A DNA stretch of 64,000 nucleotides, taken from positions 1,426,001-1,490,000 of the forward strand of contig NZ_CP077107.1 in the NCBI RefSeq assembly GCF_019263745.1, written 5' to 3'. The stretch comes from Methanospirillum hungatei (GTDB lineage Archaea > Halobacteriota > Methanomicrobia > Methanomicrobiales > Methanospirillaceae). The notes beneath the pieces are model-generated. The model searched no databases, had not been told where the DNA came from, and was given only the letters and a program-made list of their open reading frames with translations. Shown here piece after piece: positions 8,335-40,883 of this stretch. Made by a program: the position numbers and the translations under genes. The first letter of the stretch is position 1, and each line of letters begins with the position of its first letter.

Positions 8335-8805
8335 TTACAGGACAGGGACATGGATCTCGGTTAGTATCTCTTCGGGTTTTACCATCCTGGGATCATTGGG
8401 GTATATCTCCCTGATTGGGCCAGCAATCTGAAGGTGTTGCTCATCAATCCAATCAAATATTTTATAATATGTTGATTCACAGGTTTCATAGGGTCCCTTG
8501 TGAAAAGCCCGAACCATTTTTCCTCCCGGGAGTTCATACATTTTGATCTCACCGGAATTATCAGAACTCCCTGATACAGGCCAGGCAACCTCCACAACAG
8601 CAGTTCCTTTCTCATTCGCCTCCAATACTGCTTCAGGACAGGTTTCGTGGCAGATAAACATCGGTGCACCGGTGATTGTCAGTTTCTTATCCACAATGGA
8701 TTCATAGACTTTCATAAGGAGTTCAGGTATTATCCCGTATGTTCCTGTCTTTGTTATCCCCATTACCTGTTGAGGAGGGAGGTTAATGATGGTGATTTCA
8801 TCCAT
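8335..8805 (-). CDS. GyrI-like small-molecule-binding protein
   Basis: A 156-residue single-domain protein of the GyrI/AraC effector-binding family. It begins EITIINLPPQQVMGITKTGTYG, the usual first strand with its following helix, and the second half repeats the fold: GGKMVRAFHKGPYETCESTYYKI and EIYPNDPRMVKPEEILTEIHVPV, the last being the characteristic ending. These domains bind hydrophobic or cationic ligands; free-standing ones may sense or hydrolyse small molecules. No DNA-binding part is attached. Confidence 0.8.
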   Translation of the reverse strand: MDEITIINLPPQQVMGITKTGTYGIIPELLMKVYESIVDKKLTITGAPMFICHETCPEAVLEANEKGTAVVEVAWPVSGSSDNSGEIKMYELPGGKMVRAFHKGPYETCESTYYKIFDWIDEQHLQIAGPIREIYPNDPRMVKPEEILTEIHVPVL

Positions 8806-9141
8806 AATCGATCAATGGAACACAGATTACATAAAATTTGTGAATTAACAATATTCGTTGCTATTCAGCCGTAATCATCAATTCAGGAATATTATTTCTT
8901 CCCCTGGCTGAATAGTTCCTACACAGTATAGAGAAATTGAAATTTTAATATTCAGAACGGTGATGTTGGCTGAATAGTTACCTATGTTGAAATATATCTA
9001 TTCACATCTCGAAAAAGCATTTAAAAACGTTTTGAATGAAAATTAACACCATTTTATTTGAACAAATCTATCTTAAGATATAATTTAAATTTTAAAAATA
9101 CCTAGAACTGATATCATTACACATCAATATAACTCATTCAT
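8806..9141. promoter_or_regulatory. Intergenic region with three GGCTGAATAG boxes and an AT-rich promoter
   Basis: GGCTGAATAG occurs at 8906-8915 and 8968-8977, and inverted (CTATTCAGCC) at 8861-8870. The segment 9070-9110 is strongly AT-rich (ATATAATTTAAATTTTAAAA) and could supply the TATA region for the antitoxin gene at 9142. The boxes lie between divergent genes and may be operators for either. Confidence 0.45.
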
Positions 9142-9375
9142 ATGTCTACATCAACAATCCAATTACCTGAATCTACCATACACGCCTTAGATAACCTCAA
9201 AGCCCTACCTGAAGAGAGCTATGCAGAGGTAATAGAACGACTTATCACCCTCTGTTCCGAGGAGGAAGAACTCACCCCCGAAGCATGGGCCAGGGTTCAA
9301 AAAGCCGAGGAAGAATACAAAACCGGGAAGACATACTCCCTCGAAGAGATAAAAAGAAGATTGGGGGACGAATAA
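9142..9375 (+). CDS. Antitoxin of RelBE-type module
   Basis: A 77-residue protein: STIQLPESTIHALDNLKAL resembles a ribbon-helix-helix-like N-terminus, and the acidic C-terminal half (ELTPEAWARVQKAEEEYKTG, then SLEEIKRRLGDE) is typical of an antitoxin helix that wraps a RelE toxin. Such antitoxins are common in methanogens. It is followed at once by the RelE-type toxin whose apparent start begins one base after this stop codon. Control by the upstream GGCTGAATAG boxes is possible. Confidence 0.75.
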   Translation: MSTSTIQLPESTIHALDNLKALPEESYAEVIERLITLCSEEEELTPEAWARVQKAEEEYKTGKTYSLEEIKRRLGDE

Positions 9376-9376
9376 T

Positions 9377-9646
9377 ATTTTTACTCTCTCTTTCACCCAT
9401 TCTGCAGAGCAGGGTCTGAAACAGATACCCAAAGAGTACCGATTCACAATATATCAGAAACTGGAAGAACTCTGCCATCTTGAAAATCCTGCTCTTACGT
9501 TAAAGAAATTGAAAAGCCCTGATGGCGTCAGACGATACTCCTTACGAGTAGGAATATACCAGGTCACAATCAGGATTGAACAGGATACACTGATCATCAT
9601 CGTGCTTGATGCAGGACATCGAAAGCATGCATATCGCAAATACTAA
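9377..9646 (+). CDS. relE: RelE/ParE family toxin with apparent ATT start
   Basis: The frame following the antitoxin encodes a full RelE-type toxin of 89 residues: FTLSFTHSAEQGLKQIP, KLEELCHLENPALTLKKL, VRRYSLRVGIYQVTIRIE and ending in AGHRKHAYRKY. The final basic and aromatic residues are those used for mRNA cleavage on the ribosome. No ATG, GTG or TTG is available between the upstream in-frame stop and the conserved start of the fold; the ATT at 9377 falls exactly where the family's initiator would be. Either ATT is used, which would lower toxin expression, or the start was mutated and the toxin is silent. Confidence 0.72.
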   Translation: MFTLSFTHSAEQGLKQIPKEYRFTIYQKLEELCHLENPALTLKKLKSPDGVRRYSLRVGIYQVTIRIEQDTLIIIVLDAGHRKHAYRKY

Positions 9647-10147
9647 GTTATCGTTACTAATCAGCCATACTCGTGAAACCTAGTATTTAGGTAAAAGGAT
9701 TTTTTAAAATCAGGTCAATACTGGTTCATGAGAAGGTGAAATAAATAGAAAGTGAGTTTTTTAAGAGAAATCAGGAAGCCATGGCTCCTCATTTACAGCT
9801 TTAATCACTCCATCTTTGATCGAAACATCATTTTTCTACACCATAGAGACATAACTCAGGACTGAATAGACAAGGTAGCGGATTACCTAAAGACTACCCC
9901 TATACCCCTAAGACTCTCTGTATGCCATTGAGGGAATAAGGATTATTCCCCCTGCTGCTGCCAGATAGACGGCCCCGGAGGAAAAAGAAGCCTGTTTTCA
10001 TCAGAAAGGCAGTCTGGCAGGATGCGAACTAATAACTCCTCTGCATCATTTCATCAGATTTAAATGAATACAGGAAATATTCCATATGGGAACCCTGAGT
10101 CCGGAATTGGTGCTGAAAAGCCGGATGTCACAATGGAGTAATAATTT
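9647..10147. other. Gene-free stretch with a short coding remnant
   Basis: No full gene. On the minus strand near 9765-9838 a short frame (NDVSIKDGVIKAVNEEPWLP) ending in a stop looks like the C-terminal remnant of a lost gene, but it is too short to identify. The final part before 10148 is the promoter side of the solute-binding protein gene. Confidence 0.25.
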
Positions 10148-11377
10148 ATGAAAAAGATATTTTTTTGCATCTTGATATTGTGGTGTGCCCTCCTTGTCGG
10201 ATCTGTATCTGCAGAGAGAGAGATAGTTATCGGGGCAATCATCGATGAAAGCGGAGATTCCGCTTCATTTGCGAAGGGAATTGAAGCAGCCGTGAATCTT
10301 GCGGCAGCTGACATGAACGAATACTACGCAAAGACCGGAAAAAACATAACGGTTATCATCAGGAAAGCCGGAACAGACGGATCAAAGGAAGCTGCAGCAC
10401 AGGCAGCTCGGGATCTCATCAACCAGGGTGTGCAGATCATTGTCGGACCAACTACGTCTGAAGAGGTATCCGGGTACCTGCCGATCATCACCAACGAGGG
10501 GATCCTGTCAATCAGCCCGTCTACCTCAATCAAGCTGTCACTCCCCGGGGATGCAGTTGTCAGGTTGTGTCCCGATGATTACCATATTCTCCAGGCACTG
10601 GAAAGTTTCAATACCGATTTCAAGGGCATGATTAACCCGATGACCATTGTTGTATCACGGGGGGATATATACGGAATTAATCTTGCTGATTTGGTCAGTT
10701 CGGTCACCAATGTTACCGGTATCGTTTCATATCCCCCGAATACCCAGGACTTTACCGGAACCCTTGATGAACTCGATTCTCTCGTTACTCCTGTCATTGA
10801 AGAATATGGGGAAGAGAGCGTCTGCATCTTTGCCATATCCATGGATGAGATAACGGATCTGATGGCACAGGCTTCTGCATATCCAAACCTGAAAAAGATT
10901 CACTGGTCAGGGATGGATGGTGTTGCCCTGAACCCGACGGTCCTTGAGAATGAAACGGCTGCTGAGTTTGCAGATGCAACCGGGCTTGCCGCACTTTCCT
11001 TTGACGCGAGCCAGGTTGCAAGTTCTGATTACTGGCGTGTACATGAGACCGTGCAGGCCGCTATCGGCGGGCGTCAGCCCCATATTTACGAGATTCTCCC
11101 CTATGATGAAACGGTTATGGCAACCCGGATTGTCGAGCACAATATGTCTGGCATACAGGACAATCTCTATCTTGCAGATTACCTGGGAAAAACGTCGTAT
11201 GGTGCAACAGGCAGGCTCAAATTGAACGAAAACGGTGATCGCGAGTTTGGTGATTACTGCTTTTACCAGGTGAGAAAAGGAGATGACGGGAAGTATACCT
11301 GGGTTCCATCATTCACATATCTGTATGGGATGGATACCACGATTCCCCTCGTCGACCTGAATAGTACCACCATGTAA
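10148..11377 (+). CDS. Branched-chain amino acid type periplasmic-binding protein
   Basis: A 409-residue exported protein. It starts with a signal peptide (KKIFFCILILWCALLVGSVSA) followed by REIVIGAIIDESGDSASFAKGIEAA, the standard opening of the type I (LivJ/amide) binding fold, and later IIVGPTTSEEVSGYLPI and YGATGRLKLNENGDR, which are typical of this family. It would capture a ligand outside the cell, classically a branched-chain amino acid, urea or amide. No ABC permease or ATPase is nearby, so it may serve a transporter encoded elsewhere or act in sensing. Confidence 0.83.
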   Translation: MKKIFFCILILWCALLVGSVSAEREIVIGAIIDESGDSASFAKGIEAAVNLAAADMNEYYAKTGKNITVIIRKAGTDGSKEAAAQAARDLINQGVQIIVGPTTSEEVSGYLPIITNEGILSISPSTSIKLSLPGDAVVRLCPDDYHILQALESFNTDFKGMINPMTIVVSRGDIYGINLADLVSSVTNVTGIVSYPPNTQDFTGTLDELDSLVTPVIEEYGEESVCIFAISMDEITDLMAQASAYPNLKKIHWSGMDGVALNPTVLENETAAEFADATGLAALSFDASQVASSDYWRVHETVQAAIGGRQPHIYEILPYDETVMATRIVEHNMSGIQDNLYLADYLGKTSYGATGRLKLNENGDREFGDYCFYQVRKGDDGKYTWVPSFTYLYGMDTTIPLVDLNSTTM

Positions 11378-33875: not shown

Positions 33876-35809
33876 TTTTCGGAATAGATCTTATTACCGG
33901 ATCAGTCCGTTCCCGGACAGTTCAGCCGAAATATGCCCTGGTTATTCATGACGAAGGAGAGATTGTAAAAGAACTTGCAGTCTCCCTTCACCGGCTGGTT
34001 CAACTTATTCACCGGTATCAGCCAGATATCCTTGCAGTAGACTCGGTCCAGGAGATTGCCCCGCATACCCAGGATCTCTATAGGTTTTTGGAACTTCTTC
34101 CATCAAAGACACGACTCATTGTTGTAACGGGAGGCGATCGACAGATTGGTCTTATTCAGGTCGCTGCACGGTATAATATCACGTTTGACAGGTTTGATCC
34201 ATATGCAGAAGCCAGGGCAGCAGCTCAGGTTGCATTCCATGGAGCAGGTGTTGAGGTCGTTGCATTTGAGAAAGAAACTGAAATCACCATAACAAGAAAC
34301 CGATCTCCTGGGAAAGGAGGATGGAGTCAGAACAGGTATGCCAGGAAAATTCATGGAAATGTTCTCAGGTATGCGAGGGAAGTTGAGCACGAACTTCAAA
34401 GTAGGGGTCTCTCGTACTGGAAAAAAGAATATAAGGCATTTGGAGGAGTTTCACGAGTTACATTTCATGTCAGGGAAGAACGCGACCAGATTCCGGTTTC
34501 ATCTTCAAGAGGGGGTGATGTCCAGATCCGGCTTTCAGGAAAACGCCTGGACAGGATCCAGTACAGACCTGCTTCTGCCCGTCCCAAGTACCTGATAGTC
34601 GGAATTGATCCTGGCACTACTATCGGAATTGCAGTCATTGATCTCAACGGTGAGTTGATTAAGGTTCAAAGTTCCCGACAGATGACCATGGCCGATGTCA
34701 TAGAGCTTATCTGGTCACTAGGGAAACCAATCATTGTCGCCTCTGATGTTGTGCCGATGCCTTTTACCGTTGAGAAGATCCGCAGGGCATTTCAGGCAGT
34801 CCCATTTACACCACGGCAGGATATTCCGGTAGAAACCAAATATGAACTCGCCGGAAAATTCGGATATAGCAATGACCATGAACGGGATGCCTTAACTGCT
34901 GCTCTTGAGGCCTTCAGGTTCTGGAAACATAAATTTTCAGGGATATTAAAACGTGTCCCCCAGAGCGTCGATCTGGACGAGGTAAAAGCAGGGATTATAA
35001 AAGGGCAATCCCTTGAAAAAATCCTGTCAGATAGGAAAGAACCGCCGGCCAAACCTGAAGAAAAGAAACCAGAAATATCTCTTGACACCTCCGATGAACG
35101 GGTCAGAATCCTGGATGGAAAGGTAAAAGACCTCAGAATTCTCGTCTCTGATCTCCAGAAGGAGATTATGGATCTGAAAAAGCAGAACCAGAAATTATCT
35201 CGGCAGCTGACAGGCATGAAAGCTGAACGACAGAAGAATCTGAATGCCGAACCCGAAGTTATCAAACGGGAACAGATAATTGCAAATCTCAAACACCGGC
35301 TCAGACAGGAAGAACGTAACAATAAAAAACTTCAGCGCAGGCTCAAGCGAATGAAAGAGACTACAGATGAGATGAGGCCGGAAGGAACACGGGTGATAAA
35401 AGTGCTTCCAGATCTCTCCCGCGATAGTGTGCGTCTTTTGACTGAGCGAGTCGGCATTCAACCTGGTGACATCCTCTATATCAGAACACTGGCAAAGTGG
35501 GGGAAAGGGATAGTGCATGATATAACCAAGGCTGGTATTGAAGCAGTCATCCTGAATGAAAAAGCAGCAGAAACCTTAAGTCGGGAACTCAGGGATGTGT
35601 TCCTGGAGGAGTCACTTCCCCTTCTATTGTCAACAGATCTGCAGATCCAGATTAAAGGAGATTTGGGAACCTGTGATGAAGAAAAATTTGCTGATGCTCT
35701 TGATGGATGGGGCGATGAGCATGAAAAATTCCTGAAAGATAAGAGCGAGGAGATGCTTGATGATCTGATGAAAGAGTATCTTGCTGAACGTGAACGAAAG
35801 GTGCGGTAA
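33869..35809 (+). CDS. DUF460 archaeal protein (RNase H-like fold, coiled coil)
   Basis: A 646-residue archaeal-specific protein. It opens LIFGIDLITGSVRS, and a second RNase H-like start, YLIVGIDPGTTIGIAVIDLNG, lies near residue 245, so the family probably has two related folds. Residues about 395-515 form a long charged coiled coil (KVKDLRILVSDLQKEIMDLK, LKHRLRQEERNNKKLQRRLK). The C-terminal domain lies around 520-640. No activity is established; a nucleic-acid role is suspected. GTG start overlaps rio2, and its stop overlaps the thiL start by one base. Confidence 0.82.
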   Translation: MLIFGIDLITGSVRSRTVQPKYALVIHDEGEIVKELAVSLHRLVQLIHRYQPDILAVDSVQEIAPHTQDLYRFLELLPSKTRLIVVTGGDRQIGLIQVAARYNITFDRFDPYAEARAAAQVAFHGAGVEVVAFEKETEITITRNRSPGKGGWSQNRYARKIHGNVLRYAREVEHELQSRGLSYWKKEYKAFGGVSRVTFHVREERDQIPVSSSRGGDVQIRLSGKRLDRIQYRPASARPKYLIVGIDPGTTIGIAVIDLNGELIKVQSSRQMTMADVIELIWSLGKPIIVASDVVPMPFTVEKIRRAFQAVPFTPRQDIPVETKYELAGKFGYSNDHERDALTAALEAFRFWKHKFSGILKRVPQSVDLDEVKAGIIKGQSLEKILSDRKEPPAKPEEKKPEISLDTSDERVRILDGKVKDLRILVSDLQKEIMDLKKQNQKLSRQLTGMKAERQKNLNAEPEVIKREQIIANLKHRLRQEERNNKKLQRRLKRMKETTDEMRPEGTRVIKVLPDLSRDSVRLLTERVGIQPGDILYIRTLAKWGKGIVHDITKAGIEAVILNEKAAETLSRELRDVFLEESLPLLLSTDLQIQIKGDLGTCDEEKFADALDGWGDEHEKFLKDKSEEMLDDLMKEYLAERERKVR

Positions 35810-36669
35810 TGGATGACCGTGAATTACTCAACATAATCCGCCCGGTATGTGGCACAGAAACCTGTAGTGATGACTGTGCAATTCTCCCCCTTTCCTGTGG
35901 GACTCTTGTCACATCAACCGACATGCTTCATGAACGTTCAGATTTCCCCCAGGGAATGACTGACTGGCAGATAGGATGGATGTCTGTTGCGGTAACTATC
36001 AGTGATATTGCGGCAATGGGAGCACAGCCGATTCAGATTCTCCTGGCTATTGGTCTGAATACCGAAGAGCGTCTTTCAGGTATTGTTTCTGGGGCGCAAG
36101 CCTGCTGCAGAAAGTATGGCGCAACCTATGCTGGTGGTGATCTGGATGCCCACACAGAACTTACCCTCGTTTCTACCGGTATTGGGATCATAACCGATGG
36201 AACACCGGTACGAAGAATAGGAGCACATGTGGGGGATTGCATCTGCGTAACCGGAACCCTGGGCAGGGCAATTCTCGGACTTTCAGGGGATAAAAGGTAC
36301 TGGAAAGATCTCTGTGAACCACAGCCCAGAGTTCATGAGGGAATAGCAGTTCGGACTGCTGGAGCGACTGCTATGATGGATATCAGTGATGGTCTGGCCA
36401 TCTCACTCTATGACATAGCCAGTGAGTCAGGAGTTGGAATGGATATATCCTCTATTCGTATTCCTCTGCCTCCTGATGCTGAGCGTGAGAAGGCATTAGA
36501 AGCAGCCTTGTTTGGAGGGGGAGATTTTGAGCTTCTCTTTTTTATTCCGGAGAATGCCACATCTACCTTATCCATTCCTTTTTCAATCATCGGAAGGGTA
36601 ACCGAAGGATCAAATATCACAATGGATGGAGGAATTCTTCAAAAAAGAGGATACCTTCACCACTGGTAA
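35809..36669 (+). CDS. thiL: Thiamine-monophosphate kinase
   Basis: A 286-residue PurM-like kinase. Conserved pieces are CSDDCAILPLSCGTLVTSTD, DWQIGWMSVAVTISDIAAMG, YAGGDLDAHTELTLVSTGIG and AMMDISDGLAISLYDIA, which hold the magnesium and phosphate sites. It makes thiamine diphosphate. Its stop lies inside the convergent TPR gene, giving a 13-base overlap. Confidence 0.92.
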   Translation: MDDRELLNIIRPVCGTETCSDDCAILPLSCGTLVTSTDMLHERSDFPQGMTDWQIGWMSVAVTISDIAAMGAQPIQILLAIGLNTEERLSGIVSGAQACCRKYGATYAGGDLDAHTELTLVSTGIGIITDGTPVRRIGAHVGDCICVTGTLGRAILGLSGDKRYWKDLCEPQPRVHEGIAVRTAGATAMMDISDGLAISLYDIASESGVGMDISSIRIPLPPDAEREKALEAALFGGGDFELLFFIPENATSTLSIPFSIIGRVTEGSNITMDGGILQKRGYLHHW

Positions 36670-38588
36670 GAGAAACGCCAGTAGTTCCAGTTATTGGAAA
36701 AGTAGGTTACTCCCTGATACAAAGAGTCATAAACCCGGGCAATATAGAGATTTTCTCCAATCTTTTTAAAGTACGGGAATGATTCATTCACTTTCCCCAT
36801 TTTATACAGTGTCTTTCCCATGCCATACTGAGCATCACGGCTTTCAGGATCTAGTTCAAGTGCTTTGGAGAAGTCATCATATGCCTTATCAAGTTTGTCA
36901 ATCTTCTGATACGCTGCTCCCCGGTTTACGTAGAAGACTGACTGATTGGGATTTATCTTTAGTGTTTCGTTGAATGCATCAATAGCACCATAGTAATTCC
37001 CCTGCTGGAACCGGGCAAATCCAAGGTTTGTCCATCCCTCAGTATTACCTGGTTCAATTCGTACCACCTCCCGGTACGCATCTTCTGATATTCCATACTC
37101 TTTCGCGAGATCAGCCGCATACCCCTTCCTCATCCAGGCGATGGTAATATTTGGATTATCAGAAATTACCCGATCATAATAGTGGACAGTATCGTACGCC
37201 TGGTTTAATTGTCGCATTGCTTCTACCAGATATTTGAATGCATCCTCATAGAGGGGATTTATTTGTAAAGCAGTCTCGAATGCTTCCTTTGCCACATCAT
37301 ACTGTTTATTGACTGAGGCAACATCACCGAGCAGGTACCATGCATCTACTGAATACGGAGACAACTTAGTTGCTCTGGTAGCAGAGGCTTGTGCATCATT
37401 ACGTTTTCCTAAAGCGAGCTCTGCACGTGCTTTCTGCATCCAGGTTGCTGCATCATCAGGATTGATCCGGGATGCATTATCAAACCGGTATAAAGCATCC
37501 TGATACCTTCCTGACTGCATGAGCAAAAATCCGACATTTGTGATAGTGATTGGATCGAATGGATCAATCTTCAGCGATTGATTAAAAGCATCAAAAGATG
37601 CCTCTAACTTCTTCAGATTCGCATATGAAAATCCAAGGTTTGCCCAGACATCTGGATTGCTCTGGTTTATCATCAATGCACTTCGGGATATTGCGGCCGA
37701 TTCTTCAAATTCTCCAAGAACATTCTGAACTCTTGCAAGAGCAATCAGAAGATCAACGTTTTTTGGATCGTTTTTCACCAGTTGAGCATAGATTTCTTTT
37801 GATTCTTTAAATTTCCCGGTTTTTTCAAGAAGATCTGCCTGAATATATAAATTATCAGTATTATCCGGAACAAGTGTATTCAGCTGCCCATATGCAACTG
37901 CAGCCTCTTCAAGCCGGTTAGAAAGCCGGAGCATTTCCCCAAGCCGCTTCCATGCATGAGCATCCTTCAGATTCTGTTTCAGCGCATTGTCGTACGCTTT
38001 GGCCGCTTCGTTATACCTTCCAACGTTGTATAACAATTCAGCCTGCTTTACATATATGTCAGAATTCTTTCGGGTGAGGTTTACTGCAATTCCATACTCA
38101 TAGAGTGCAGATTCAGTTTCATTCATCCCGGCATAGACATCACCAAGTTCTGAATGTGCAGCAGCATTCCCGGGGTCTAAAACTATAGCCTGATTCAAAT
38201 CATTGATGGCTTCAGATAAATTACCTGTTCGTGCATATGCTGCCCCTCTTCCTACGAAAGCAGTGCTGTTATTAGGATTTAGTAAAAGAACATGGGAAAA
38301 GGTCGTAATTGCCTCCAGATCCTTTGTTTGATTCGCCAGAAGATCAGCAGTTTTCAGCCAGAGACCTGGATCTGAATCATCTAGTTTTATGGCTGCGTCA
38401 TACAGGGATATCGCTTCACTGACACTACCATTCTCTGCCTTTTCTTGAGCAAGAAGTGTCAGATTTGAAGAGATATTTGACACATTAATAGGCCGGTCTT
38501 CAACACATCCACATATGAGCAGGATTCCTGTCAGAAGGGAAATGGAGAGTACATGTATTAGAATACGATTTCTGCTTTTATTTTCCAT
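36657..38588 (-). CDS. TPR-repeat lipoprotein
   Basis: A 643-residue protein made of a signal peptide with a lipobox-like end (LLTGILLICGCVEDRP) and about sixteen tetratricopeptide repeats, each of 34 residues with the usual W/L-G-A-Y-A-F-A-P pattern (for example AEAAAYD-like and IDAFNETLKINPN units). It would sit outside the cell membrane as a scaffold. I chose ATG 38588, since the preceding four codons begin at TTG. It follows the PKD gene by 18 bases, so both are likely one transcript. Confidence 0.85.
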   Translation of the reverse strand: MENKSRNRILIHVLSISLLTGILLICGCVEDRPINVSNISSNLTLLAQEKAENGSVSEAISLYDAAIKLDDSDPGLWLKTADLLANQTKDLEAITTFSHVLLLNPNNSTAFVGRGAAYARTGNLSEAINDLNQAIVLDPGNAAAHSELGDVYAGMNETESALYEYGIAVNLTRKNSDIYVKQAELLYNVGRYNEAAKAYDNALKQNLKDAHAWKRLGEMLRLSNRLEEAAVAYGQLNTLVPDNTDNLYIQADLLEKTGKFKESKEIYAQLVKNDPKNVDLLIALARVQNVLGEFEESAAISRSALMINQSNPDVWANLGFSYANLKKLEASFDAFNQSLKIDPFDPITITNVGFLLMQSGRYQDALYRFDNASRINPDDAATWMQKARAELALGKRNDAQASATRATKLSPYSVDAWYLLGDVASVNKQYDVAKEAFETALQINPLYEDAFKYLVEAMRQLNQAYDTVHYYDRVISDNPNITIAWMRKGYAADLAKEYGISEDAYREVVRIEPGNTEGWTNLGFARFQQGNYYGAIDAFNETLKINPNQSVFYVNRGAAYQKIDKLDKAYDDFSKALELDPESRDAQYGMGKTLYKMGKVNESFPYFKKIGENLYIARVYDSLYQGVTYFSNNWNYWRFSYQW

Positions 38589-38606
38589 TCGTATCAACAA
38601 AAAAGA

Positions 38607-39314
38607 TTAAAATCCAGTATTATAGGGGACACTATGTACCAGGTAATATGCCCCGTTTATATCAAGCGTTTCCTTGTAACCACGTTCTGTCAGGAAGCCC
38701 TGTGAACTATTGTACAATGTTATTTCATTTGCAGTAAAGGATGCACTCCCAATTGCACCATCAGCACCAGAGGGCATTTCAACCCGGTTTCTCGGCTCCG
38801 GATACCAACCTTCAGGGACTTCCTGCCTGACACCAGAACCACGTTCATGAACAGTTATGTAATCAAGTTCACGATCTATACTGGACCACATAAAATCGGT
38901 CATTTGTCCCCGACTTGTATTCCGGTATTCGGTCATCGGAGTTTCGTAGGTGTAATTGGAATAGAGAGTCAGAGTGACGTCATATTTACCAGGTTCCCGA
39001 TAGGTATGTATGGGATTTTTATCAGTTGATGTGTTGCCGTCGCCAAAATCCCATATTCGTCCATCTGCAAATCCATAACTGACATCATAGAACCGTACCC
39101 GGAATGGCGCATCTCCTTCAGTCCTGTCTGAAGTGAAATCTGCAGCAATTGTAGAGATGACAAACTCATCATATGAGGGGTGGCATCCACGGGTAAATCC
39201 AGGTGGAGAGGGAAGCATTGATGGTTTTAAGGTATATGCAGCATGCACCGTTGTGCTAATCAATATCATGATAACACATAATCCGAGAACGTATCTCCAC
39301 CAGGCAGATGTCAT
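38607..39314 (-). CDS. Secreted PKD-domain protein
   Basis: A 235-residue protein with a signal peptide (YVLGLCVIMILISTTVHAAY). Residues about 55-120 form one PKD domain: DAPFRVRFYDVSYGFADG, then IWDFGDGNTSTDKNPIHTYR and GKYDVTLTLYSNY. The C-terminal part ends in ITLYNSSQGFLTERGYKETL. PKD domains usually mediate protein or sugar contacts on archaeal surfaces. Overlaps the upstream gene by four bases. Confidence 0.85.
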   Translation of the reverse strand: MTSAWWRYVLGLCVIMILISTTVHAAYTLKPSMLPSPPGFTRGCHPSYDEFVISTIAADFTSDRTEGDAPFRVRFYDVSYGFADGRIWDFGDGNTSTDKNPIHTYREPGKYDVTLTLYSNYTYETPMTEYRNTSRGQMTDFMWSSIDRELDYITVHERGSGVRQEVPEGWYPEPRNRVEMPSGADGAIGSASFTANEITLYNSSQGFLTERGYKETLDINGAYYLVHSVPYNTGF

Positions 39315-39736
39315 AATTTAATTCCTGAGGTATAGGTAAAGGACTTCATAAAGTTTACAATTGCGCCACTGACCATTGACGAATCACGCCATTCATTTCT
39401 TGCAGATTCATTGTGATGAATTCCCCTGGCCTCAAGGATACTCCCCCTGAAATCAGTGCGAACGGTCCCAATAGCAGCGTCAGAACCAATAATTGGAGAG
39501 ATACTTACCATGTATTCCACACCGGCCGGACCGGCATCATCCCCGACAGCCCGGATTTTGAGCTTCGATTCCATCGCAAATGACTGCATATTAACAAGAC
39601 TTGTTGATCCACTCACATGATCATCAAAAGCCGGAGAGACTGACCAGGAGTCTGCACTAATGAGAACAGGTGTAAAGAGGATAAAGAGTATTGTGGAGAT
39701 GAAAACGCGAATATGCGTCATGTAATTCACGCTCAT
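39311..39736 (-). CDS. Secreted protein of unknown function
   Basis: A 141-residue exported protein: signal peptide FISTILFILFTPVLISADS, then a beta-rich body with SFAMESKLKIRAVGDDAGPA and AAIGTVRTDFRGSILEARGI, ending in FMKSFTYTSGIKL. The ending and the A-x-G-T-x-x-x-F motif resemble the next protein upstream (SFTVTSGL, AAGSASTEF), so the two may be paralogues. ATG 39721 is an alternative start with a tidier signal peptide. No domain recognised. Confidence 0.7.
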   Translation of the reverse strand: MSVNYMTHIRVFISTILFILFTPVLISADSWSVSPAFDDHVSGSTSLVNMQSFAMESKLKIRAVGDDAGPAGVEYMVSISPIIGSDAAIGTVRTDFRGSILEARGIHHNESARNEWRDSSMVSGAIVNFMKSFTYTSGIKL

Positions 39737-39776
39737 CTGGTTTGTCAGACAGTTCTAATATGTTTCCTGCCGGAGA

Positions 39777-40604
39777 TCAAGTAGGGGAGAGACCAGAAGT
39801 CACCGTAAATGATTTTCCAAAGGTGAATATCTGCCCATCTACCGTTGTTTTATCCTTGACCTGCTTTGTTGAAGAGAGGTTTGTACTATTCGTCGGTGCT
39901 CCCTCTTCATTAGTCATAACAAATTCGGTACTTGCTGATCCTGCTGCATAAGGTATTCCAGATGACATATCCGGATGAATTCCGATAAGATAGCGAAGCT
40001 CAGCAGGTATTGTATTATCTGTTCCTACTGAACGTGCACGAGCCATCGTTGCAATCTGTCCGGTAGTCATGTCAGTTGCAGATGCACCTTTGTAATAACT
40101 GTTAAAGCCACCGACATAGTCACCAATGATCTCAGCAACAAGCGGATTTCGGACTGAAAGATTGTTCTGAGAATAATTACCGGATGTGTACATCTCAAGA
40201 GAATCAGAAGATGACATCTTACTTCCTATTTCCGGGTCAGTAAGATATGTAGAGACTATTTTTGAATCTACATTGAAGGCACCTTTTTGTTGTGGACCCT
40301 CATCTATCTTCAGACCTTTACTTTGCGCAAGATATCCTCCGTTTGTTGTCATATCATTTTTATATACAACGGATGAAACCCGCTCACCATCATAGAGGAA
40401 ACCACCCTCATGTGCTCCATGACTTGTTGTTTCCAATTGGTAGGTCTGATGAGAAGACATTGAACCTATCACTTCCAGATAGGTCTCGGACGGAATCTGT
40501 CTGTTTGTAGTATTTGTTCCATTCGGAAGAATATCTGCCGTCACAGCAGAGATGAGAATGAAAGAGAGACAGATACTGACTAGAAAGGTGATCTTATGAT
40601 TCAT
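39777..40604 (-). CDS. Secreted protein of unknown function, related to its neighbour
   Basis: A 275-residue exported protein: signal peptide FLVSICLSFILISAVTAD, then many serine, threonine and asparagine residues with several N-x-S/T sites, and the ending IFTFGKSFTVTSGLSPT. I chose ATG 40604 because the upstream part of the open frame overlaps both tRNA genes. It lies 69 bases downstream of tRNA-Asp. No family recognised; a cell-surface role is likely. First gene of the minus-strand secreted block. Confidence 0.75.
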   Translation of the reverse strand: MNHKITFLVSICLSFILISAVTADILPNGTNTTNRQIPSETYLEVIGSMSSHQTYQLETTSHGAHEGGFLYDGERVSSVVYKNDMTTNGGYLAQSKGLKIDEGPQQKGAFNVDSKIVSTYLTDPEIGSKMSSSDSLEMYTSGNYSQNNLSVRNPLVAEIIGDYVGGFNSYYKGASATDMTTGQIATMARARSVGTDNTIPAELRYLIGIHPDMSSGIPYAAGSASTEFVMTNEEGAPTNSTNLSSTKQVKDKTTVDGQIFTFGKSFTVTSGLSPT

Positions 40605-40744: not shown

Positions 40745-40752
40745 TAGGCATA

Positions 40753-40858
40753 TCCCGCCTCCCGGATTTGAACCGGGGACATCGCGGTAGCTGCGCTTTT
40801 GCCTCATGCGGCAATTCAGTCTACAGCCGCGCACTCTACCAGTCTGAGTTAAGGCGGG
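40753..40858 (-). tRNA. tRNA-Tyr (GTA) with intron
   Basis: The 106-base minus-strand sequence has acceptor CCCGCCT paired with AGGCGGG, an anticodon stem CGCGG with CCGCG and T-arm around GGTTCAAATCC. The anticodon loop is CTGTAG, then an intron of about 32 bases, then A, so the intron sits at the canonical 37/38 position and anticodon is GTA. The intron can form a helix with the anticodon region, as needed for the archaeal splicing endonuclease (bulge-helix-bulge). Confidence 0.92.
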
Positions 40859-40883
40859 ATTGTGCTCTAATAGGTGGTAGTTA

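Follow-up and report, generated by a model that had tools for sequence, protein, structure and literature searches.

In the genome of Methanospirillum hungatei, a block of four genes within the 64,000-nucleotide window analysed here (positions 1,426,001 to 1,490,000 of contig NZ_CP077107.1, part of a 3,393,136-base single-contig genome) very probably represents an accessory module of the archaeal sheath. Two of its genes, called U1 and U2 in the following, encode divergent, predicted-secreted members of SH/MspA, the archaeal sheath protein family whose amyloid-like major member makes the Methanospirillum sheath. The other two encode a PKD-domain protein and a lipoprotein with tetratricopeptide repeats (TPR), which are predicted-exported partners with genes conserved beside U1 and U2, the PKD gene in the Methanospirillum lineage only. 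The original prediction, which was made from the sequence alone, had suggested that the four proteins may build a cell-surface structure. This suggestion is supported for U1 and U2 by their homology with MspA and for the TPR lipoprotein by its conserved linkage to SH genes. The motif that the PKD protein had been said to share with U1 and U2 did not withstand closer inspection.

The relationship to the sheath proteins is evident from profile comparisons, in which the U1 group matches the MspA group with an hhalign E value of 2.3e-27 and the U2 group with 3.5e-31. U1 and U2 can also be aligned with each other (blastp, 108 residues, E 1e-9). As queries against their own genome, U1 matches five other sites at E 1.6e-5 or better, U2 among them, and U2 matches six at E 1.6e-6 or better; the SH family of this genome includes a 360-aa MspA orthologue (L023:7243-8325). 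MspA itself was identified because the length, mass and cysteine positions of its counterpart in genome G156 (377 aa, computed mass 40.5 kDa, cysteines 257 and 271) agree with the published sheath protein of strain JF-1. That protein was described with 377 aa, 40.6 kDa, Cys271 and one cysteine counted (PMC6242892), while Cys257 was added and two cysteines counted later (PMC10593813), and the G156 sequence has two cysteines as in the later count. The endings SFTVTSGL and SFTYTSGI, already noticed as common to U1 and U2, are real and, given the homology of the two proteins, represent the C-terminal signature of the SH family. Both proteins begin with a hydrophobic signal segment, which appears as a signal helix in the structural model of U2, and U1 orthologues are present in 8 other genomes. 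Domain databases gave no assignment: in Pfam, no family was found above cut-off for U1, at E 1 or better for U2 and at E 0.01 or better for MspA, and NCBIfam had no family reaching E 0.01 for any of the three. Likewise, no solved structure matched the sequences of U1 or of the MspA orthologue from the same genome, and a fold search with the U2 model among viral structures gave no hit reaching E 0.001, the best being 0.027. Six SH homologues of 111-370 aa were counted in JF-1 in 2018 (PMC6242892), and U1 and U2 are probably among them. A 2024 survey reported 3-31 copies of SH homologues, to which both proteins belong, in Methanospirillum and Methanolinea genomes (PMC11576556).

With MspA of JF-1 (WP_011449234.1, Mhun_2271), U1 and U2 share the signal segment, the homologous core and the C-terminal signature. 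However, MspA has a cap insertion in addition to the cysteines 257 and 271, whereas U1 lacks the cap and carries other residues at both cysteine positions (alignment A3), and in U2 the N-terminal half is missing as well. The single cysteine of U1, residue 12, is located inside the signal segment, and U2 contains none. The alignment of U1 spans the whole SH core with its two six-stranded beta-sheets, while U2 covers only positions 152-269 of the 270 positions of the SH model. In its AlphaFold model (mean pLDDT 73, pTM 0.50), the signal helix is followed by six strands, compared with twelve strands in the published SH core (PMC10593813). As these six strands make up approximately half of the core, U2 is a half-length SH homologue. 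In the published sheath model, neighbouring hoops contact each other in the cap, and disulfides are proposed between the rings within a hoop (PMC10593813). Between the genome analysed here and JF-1, U1 and the PKD protein are both 88% identical, U2 82% and the TPR lipoprotein 78%; the MspA pair is 68% identical and three other SH pairs 77-79%.

The four genes were expected to lie in a row, which is indeed the case, and to encode exported proteins. All are on the minus strand with intergenic distances of 40, -4 (an overlap) and 18 bases from U1 via U2 and PKD to TPR, and all predicted proteins have a hydrophobic N-terminal segment, accompanied by a lipobox-like segment in the TPR protein. The search for the block in other genomes, which had been proposed as a check and for which TPR matches were listed only from 150 bits up, found the complete order in seven of nine carrier genomes, namely the own genome and those with loci L067 and L070 to L074. 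In the other two the block is cut by contig ends, within the TPR gene in L068 and the PKD gene in L069. The 4-base overlap between U2 and PKD is kept in six of the nine, and in genome G047 the block proteins are 29-41% identical to those of the window. The block looks like a minus-strand operon, and co-transcription of U1, U2, PKD and TPR is predicted as likely, given the close spacing of the genes, their overlap by 4 bases in one case and the gene order kept between genomes.

A wider linkage became visible when the neighbouring thiL-like gene was used as landmark. The census of SH genes over 199 Methanomicrobiales genomes was done with profile A6 at E 1e-6, because a single-sequence search with U1 undercounts them (26 of 199 at E 1e-5); SH proteins were found in 37 genomes, all within one family code. 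In genomes with and without SH proteins, the DNA downstream of thiL was then searched with profiles of SH and of the TPR protein. Among the former, thiL was matched in 35 of 37 (it was called absent at E 1e-40 in G185 and G189), and a TPR lipoprotein of about 660 aa is encoded downstream of thiL in 32 of these 35; in the remaining three (G167, G179, G195) the contig stops 1.6-2.0 kb past thiL. The 32 include G178, whose locus is split over two contigs and was counted separately from a listing of TPR candidates at E 1e-45 or better, with six candidates scored per genome. In contrast, neither a TPR lipoprotein nor an SH gene was found at any of 45 SH-negative thiL loci, a subset of the 162 SH-negative genomes chosen by their listed thiL places, of which four (L191, L192, L195, L198) have less than 6 kb past thiL. 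Half-length and full-length SH genes occur together in 27 of the 32 tabulated TPR-bearing loci (with G178 counted through L068), only the full-length form in two, both on contigs ending nearby, and neither form in three, of which L108 and L184 are located at contig ends and the third belongs to G077, a genome with SH genes elsewhere. Altogether 29 short SH rows were scored, one of them (L109, 11532-11885) being cut by the locus end. Their matches fall in the C-terminal part of the SH model and begin, for nearly all rows, at position 149-168 by one or both of two models; the weakest row, in L185, has E 8e-4 and matches from position 209 only. The orientation of SH and TPR genes varies between same strand, divergent and convergent, while their adjacency stays. 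The 2024 survey stated that SH genes have no conserved context (PMC11576556), which is not borne out in this Methanomicrobiales family, where the thiL locus links a half-length SH gene with that of a TPR lipoprotein.

The SH proteins at thiL were also compared in a tree, which was calculated with a quick method and in which the program flagged long branches. Fifteen genomes of other genera each contribute one thiL-locus SH protein, one per fetched locus, to a separate clade (SH-aLRT 100), of which no member was found in the seven loci from genus code g2 that were included in the tree. Next to the other Methanospirillum SH proteins, U1 groups with its counterparts in a clade of its own (98), apart from that of the other genera. 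A single origin of U1 and the thiL-linked SH proteins of other genera is therefore unsupported, since the two clades stay apart.

The TPR protein matches TPR_2 over 11 stretches (Pfam, scored on a 647-aa form); its start is assigned to the ATG at 38588, which is kept in relatives, with a TTG at 38600 as alternative. The lipobox-like segment ends in GC. When 32 TPR rows were scanned with a lipobox pattern, 28 matched, three more have AGC or SGC by eye, and one lacks the N-terminus. Most rows outside Methanospirillum and G047 end with a tail like A-I-R-x-x-W-P-x-Y. TPR arrays are typical protein-binding scaffolds. The protein has the lipobox and the TPR array in common with the TPR lipoproteins PilW, Tgl and PrsT, and the matches run through the repeats. 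However, it stays below the curated NCBIfam cut-off of all three (138.5 of 154, 83.9 of 225 and 167 of 312 bits, respectively) and is not assigned to any of these families. It does exceed the cut-off of the chaperone model LcrH_SycD (147.4 vs 104.8 bits over five stretches), but we take this score as summed repeats and rejected the membership.

In the PKD protein, one PKD domain is followed by a lineage-specific tail, and together with the TPRs this was the only domain above cut-off in the Pfam search of the four proteins. The tail was found in nine of the 199 Methanomicrobiales genomes, a set identical to the carriers of U1, U2 and PKD, which comprises G047 and eight genomes from the genus of the window, its own genome among them. 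The original prediction had connected this protein with U1 and U2 by a motif A-x-G-S/T-x-x-x-F, which in this form matches none of the four proteins; four residues stand before the F in U1 and U2 (AAGSASTEF, AIGTVRTDF) and two in the PKD protein (AIGSASF), so that the motifs are out of register. Profile comparisons of the tail gave hhalign probabilities of 2.5% with all SH proteins (a score reached by 3 of 300 column shuffles), 1.2% with U2 (13 of 300), 0.1% with the MspA group (207 of 300) and 0.4% with U1, the latter without shuffles. Given this weak and uneven signal, a pLDDT below 50 for the tail in the AlphaFold model and the shifted motif, the tail was rejected as third SH module; the PKD protein is treated as a lineage-specific partner with unproven kinship to SH. 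A further protein encoded at 55.2 kb of the window, supposed to combine both architectures, has clear TPRs, but its PKD match stays below the Pfam cut-off (E 7.6e-5; 23.1 vs 27 bits). In the whole genome, 129 matches to the PKD protein were obtained at E 1 or better, mostly PKD domains and many in open reading frames of more than 1,000 aa, which points to an unusually PKD-rich surface repertoire.

How could such a module act? SH monomers were proposed to assemble near the membrane into ring segments, with neighbours joined at their edges, to cross the S-layer and to enter the sheath between the daughter cells (PMC10593813), while the factors for sheath assembly and plugs were called unknown in the 2024 survey (PMC11576556). 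In the most likely mechanism, which is inferred, the TPR lipoprotein on the outer face of the membrane would hold U2 and U1 via the PKD protein, which would serve as spacer. U2 would offer one native joining edge for SH monomers, its other edge being normally internal; hence, it could form the beginning or the end of a polymer but would not elongate it normally, and may start or cap beta-ring segments near the membrane. U1 would be a minor ring or adaptor subunit, first or linking, and not part of the bulk sheath, because it lacks the cap and the cysteines thought to join rings. Apart from the two main SH genes, transcription in this family was reported to be very low (PMC11576556); provided that U1 and U2 belong to these weakly transcribed genes, this agrees with a role as minor components. 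Taken as one statement, that the block is a sheath accessory operon acting as tethered starter or anchor of sheath rings, we regard this proposal as evenly balanced. The tethered start-or-anchor job by itself seems somewhat less likely to be right than wrong. Still more tentative is the generalized form, according to which the half-length SH and the thiL-linked TPR lipoprotein represent a machine dedicated to starting and anchoring the giant amyloid-like rings from which the sheath of Methanomicrobiales is made, where the half-subunit would break the symmetry of the ring polymer and the lipoprotein would hold it at the membrane.

In curli and Fap, a minor amyloid-fold subunit at the cell surface starts the polymer. 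With these systems (CsgA/CsgB with CsgG; FapB/FapC) the block would share only this proposed logic of a surface-held minor subunit, whereas Pfam revealed neither a secretion pore nor a chaperone nor any other homologous gene in the block. To our knowledge, archaea do not have an outer membrane of the curli/Fap kind. A comparison of the sheath with functional amyloid systems was already drawn in PMC6242892.

Several observations weigh against a sheath accessory operon with a start-and-anchor function. Mass spectrometry of dissolved JF-1 sheath bands gave MspA only (PMC6242892). In G077, the TPR lipoprotein gene (L120:6976-8991) is situated beside thiL with no SH gene in the 9 kb fetched, while SH genes exist elsewhere in that genome. 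Nine SH loci of another family code (L172-L180), three of them on contigs under 5 kb, have no such TPR gene, so that the TPR partner is linked to SH in this Methanomicrobiales family code and is not shown for other sheathed lineages. The own genome encodes many TPR proteins, with 25 matches reaching E 1e-10, and neighbouring genes may disappear in one loss. A thiL tree was built from 79 rows, without G178 and, for the TPR count, without three loci; on this tree the SH trait needs four changes and the TPR trait three, and the independent-pairs test found one pair on well-supported branches, too few changes for significance. The co-distribution hence rests on few events. These few changes, the commonness of TPR genes and the restriction of all SH-positive Methanomicrobiales genomes to one family code are what would be expected if an SH cluster and an unrelated TPR gene had met beside thiL in an ancestor and were then kept or lost together by descent only. 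We consider this improbable, because the adjacency survives changes in strand order and SH copy number across several genus codes and the spacing of the genes in the Methanospirillum lineage is tight. The G077 arrangement is also a possible test of a function in trans.

The main rival to a starter or anchor places the module at the end rim or plug. Here, U1 and U2 would build a specialised minor structure at the sheath end, for example the inner tube with its smaller hoops or the site where sheath and plug meet. The TPR and PKD proteins would connect this structure to the membrane or S-layer, and ordinary rings would not be started by U1 and U2. Cryo-electron tomography revealed an inner tube of smaller hoops and densities of unknown protein near the plug (PMC11641113, PMC10593813), small-cap SH proteins were suggested to connect hoops or support plugs (PMC11576556), and the lack of cap and cysteines in U1 would suit such a position. 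However, other genera, for which evidence of such plugs is lacking here, possess the half-length SH and the TPR lipoprotein as well, and plugs were proposed to be S-layer isoforms (PMC11641113), so that this explanation appears rather unlikely, although it deserves more weight than shared descent. Very improbable is a surface adhesion complex with a borrowed SH fold outside the sheath. PKD domains are frequent in surface proteins, and SH proteins with Ig-like chains were proposed as adhesins in Methanothrix (PMC11576556), but U1 and U2 have no Ig-like chain, neither SH genes nor the TPR partner were found at the loci examined in SH-negative genomes, and U1 is conserved between species (88%), unlike a variable adhesin.

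The coordinates of the block and of the bordering gene are compiled in Table 1. The latter is putatively named thiL from its sequence; its 3' end and that of the TPR gene overlap convergently by 13 bases. Upstream of U1, a tRNA-Asp gene was found on the same strand, the only tRNA listed there by ARAGORN in bacterial mode. Further upstream (40750-40860, minus strand), a candidate intron-containing tRNA, perhaps tRNA-Tyr (GTA), was noticed by eye, which is absent from that list.

Table 1. Genes of the four-gene block and its landmark, with positions in the window
Gene	Coordinates	Strand	Product or role	Basis
U1	40604-39777	minus	SH family, full-length, exported, no cap insertion, 275 aa	hhalign, alignment A3
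U2	39736-39311	minus	SH family, half-length (C-terminal half of SH), exported, 141 aa	hhalign, SH model, AlphaFold
PKD	39314-38607	minus	exported protein, one PKD domain and lineage-specific tail, 235 aa	PKD_4 E 2.5e-12
TPR	38588-36657	minus	TPR lipoprotein, 643 aa	TPR_2 E 3.7e-71, lipobox-like segment, thiL-side counterparts
thiL-like	35809..36669	plus	marks the locus, outside the module	sequence and position

Other SH genes of the same genome showed features of their own. A further SH-family match, missed by the U1 search, is located at G000:C1:1635076-1635876 (E 3.7e-45, 284-aa frame). A second half-length SH gene (L026:6007-6435, 142 aa) is situated away from thiL and adjoins a receiver/CheB-like cluster, and a 1336-aa open reading frame with long T-V-E-P-T / V-T-P-E-P repeats (L025:11096-15106) lies near an SH gene. 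Between the gene of the MspA orthologue and another SH gene (L023:10987-11808), an AglB/STT3-type oligosaccharyltransferase is encoded (8477-10906, AglB_core-like E 3.5e-23), which suggests that sheath proteins may be glycosylated.

Within the literature searched, three findings are new: an operon kept between genomes, a TPR lipoprotein as SH partner beside thiL, and a half-length SH that recurs. The search found nothing tying a sheath protein to tetratricopeptide repeats in Methanospirillum, and in the main text of the 2024 survey the terms TPR, tetratricopeptide, lipoprotein and PKD are not mentioned (PMC11576556). If the start-and-anchor machine proposed above exists, it would represent the first assembly apparatus for an archaeal sheath within the sheath literature searched. 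Collectively, the repeated occurrence of half-length and full-length SH together with the TPR lipoprotein provides concrete candidates for sheath anchoring or assembly and makes this question testable.

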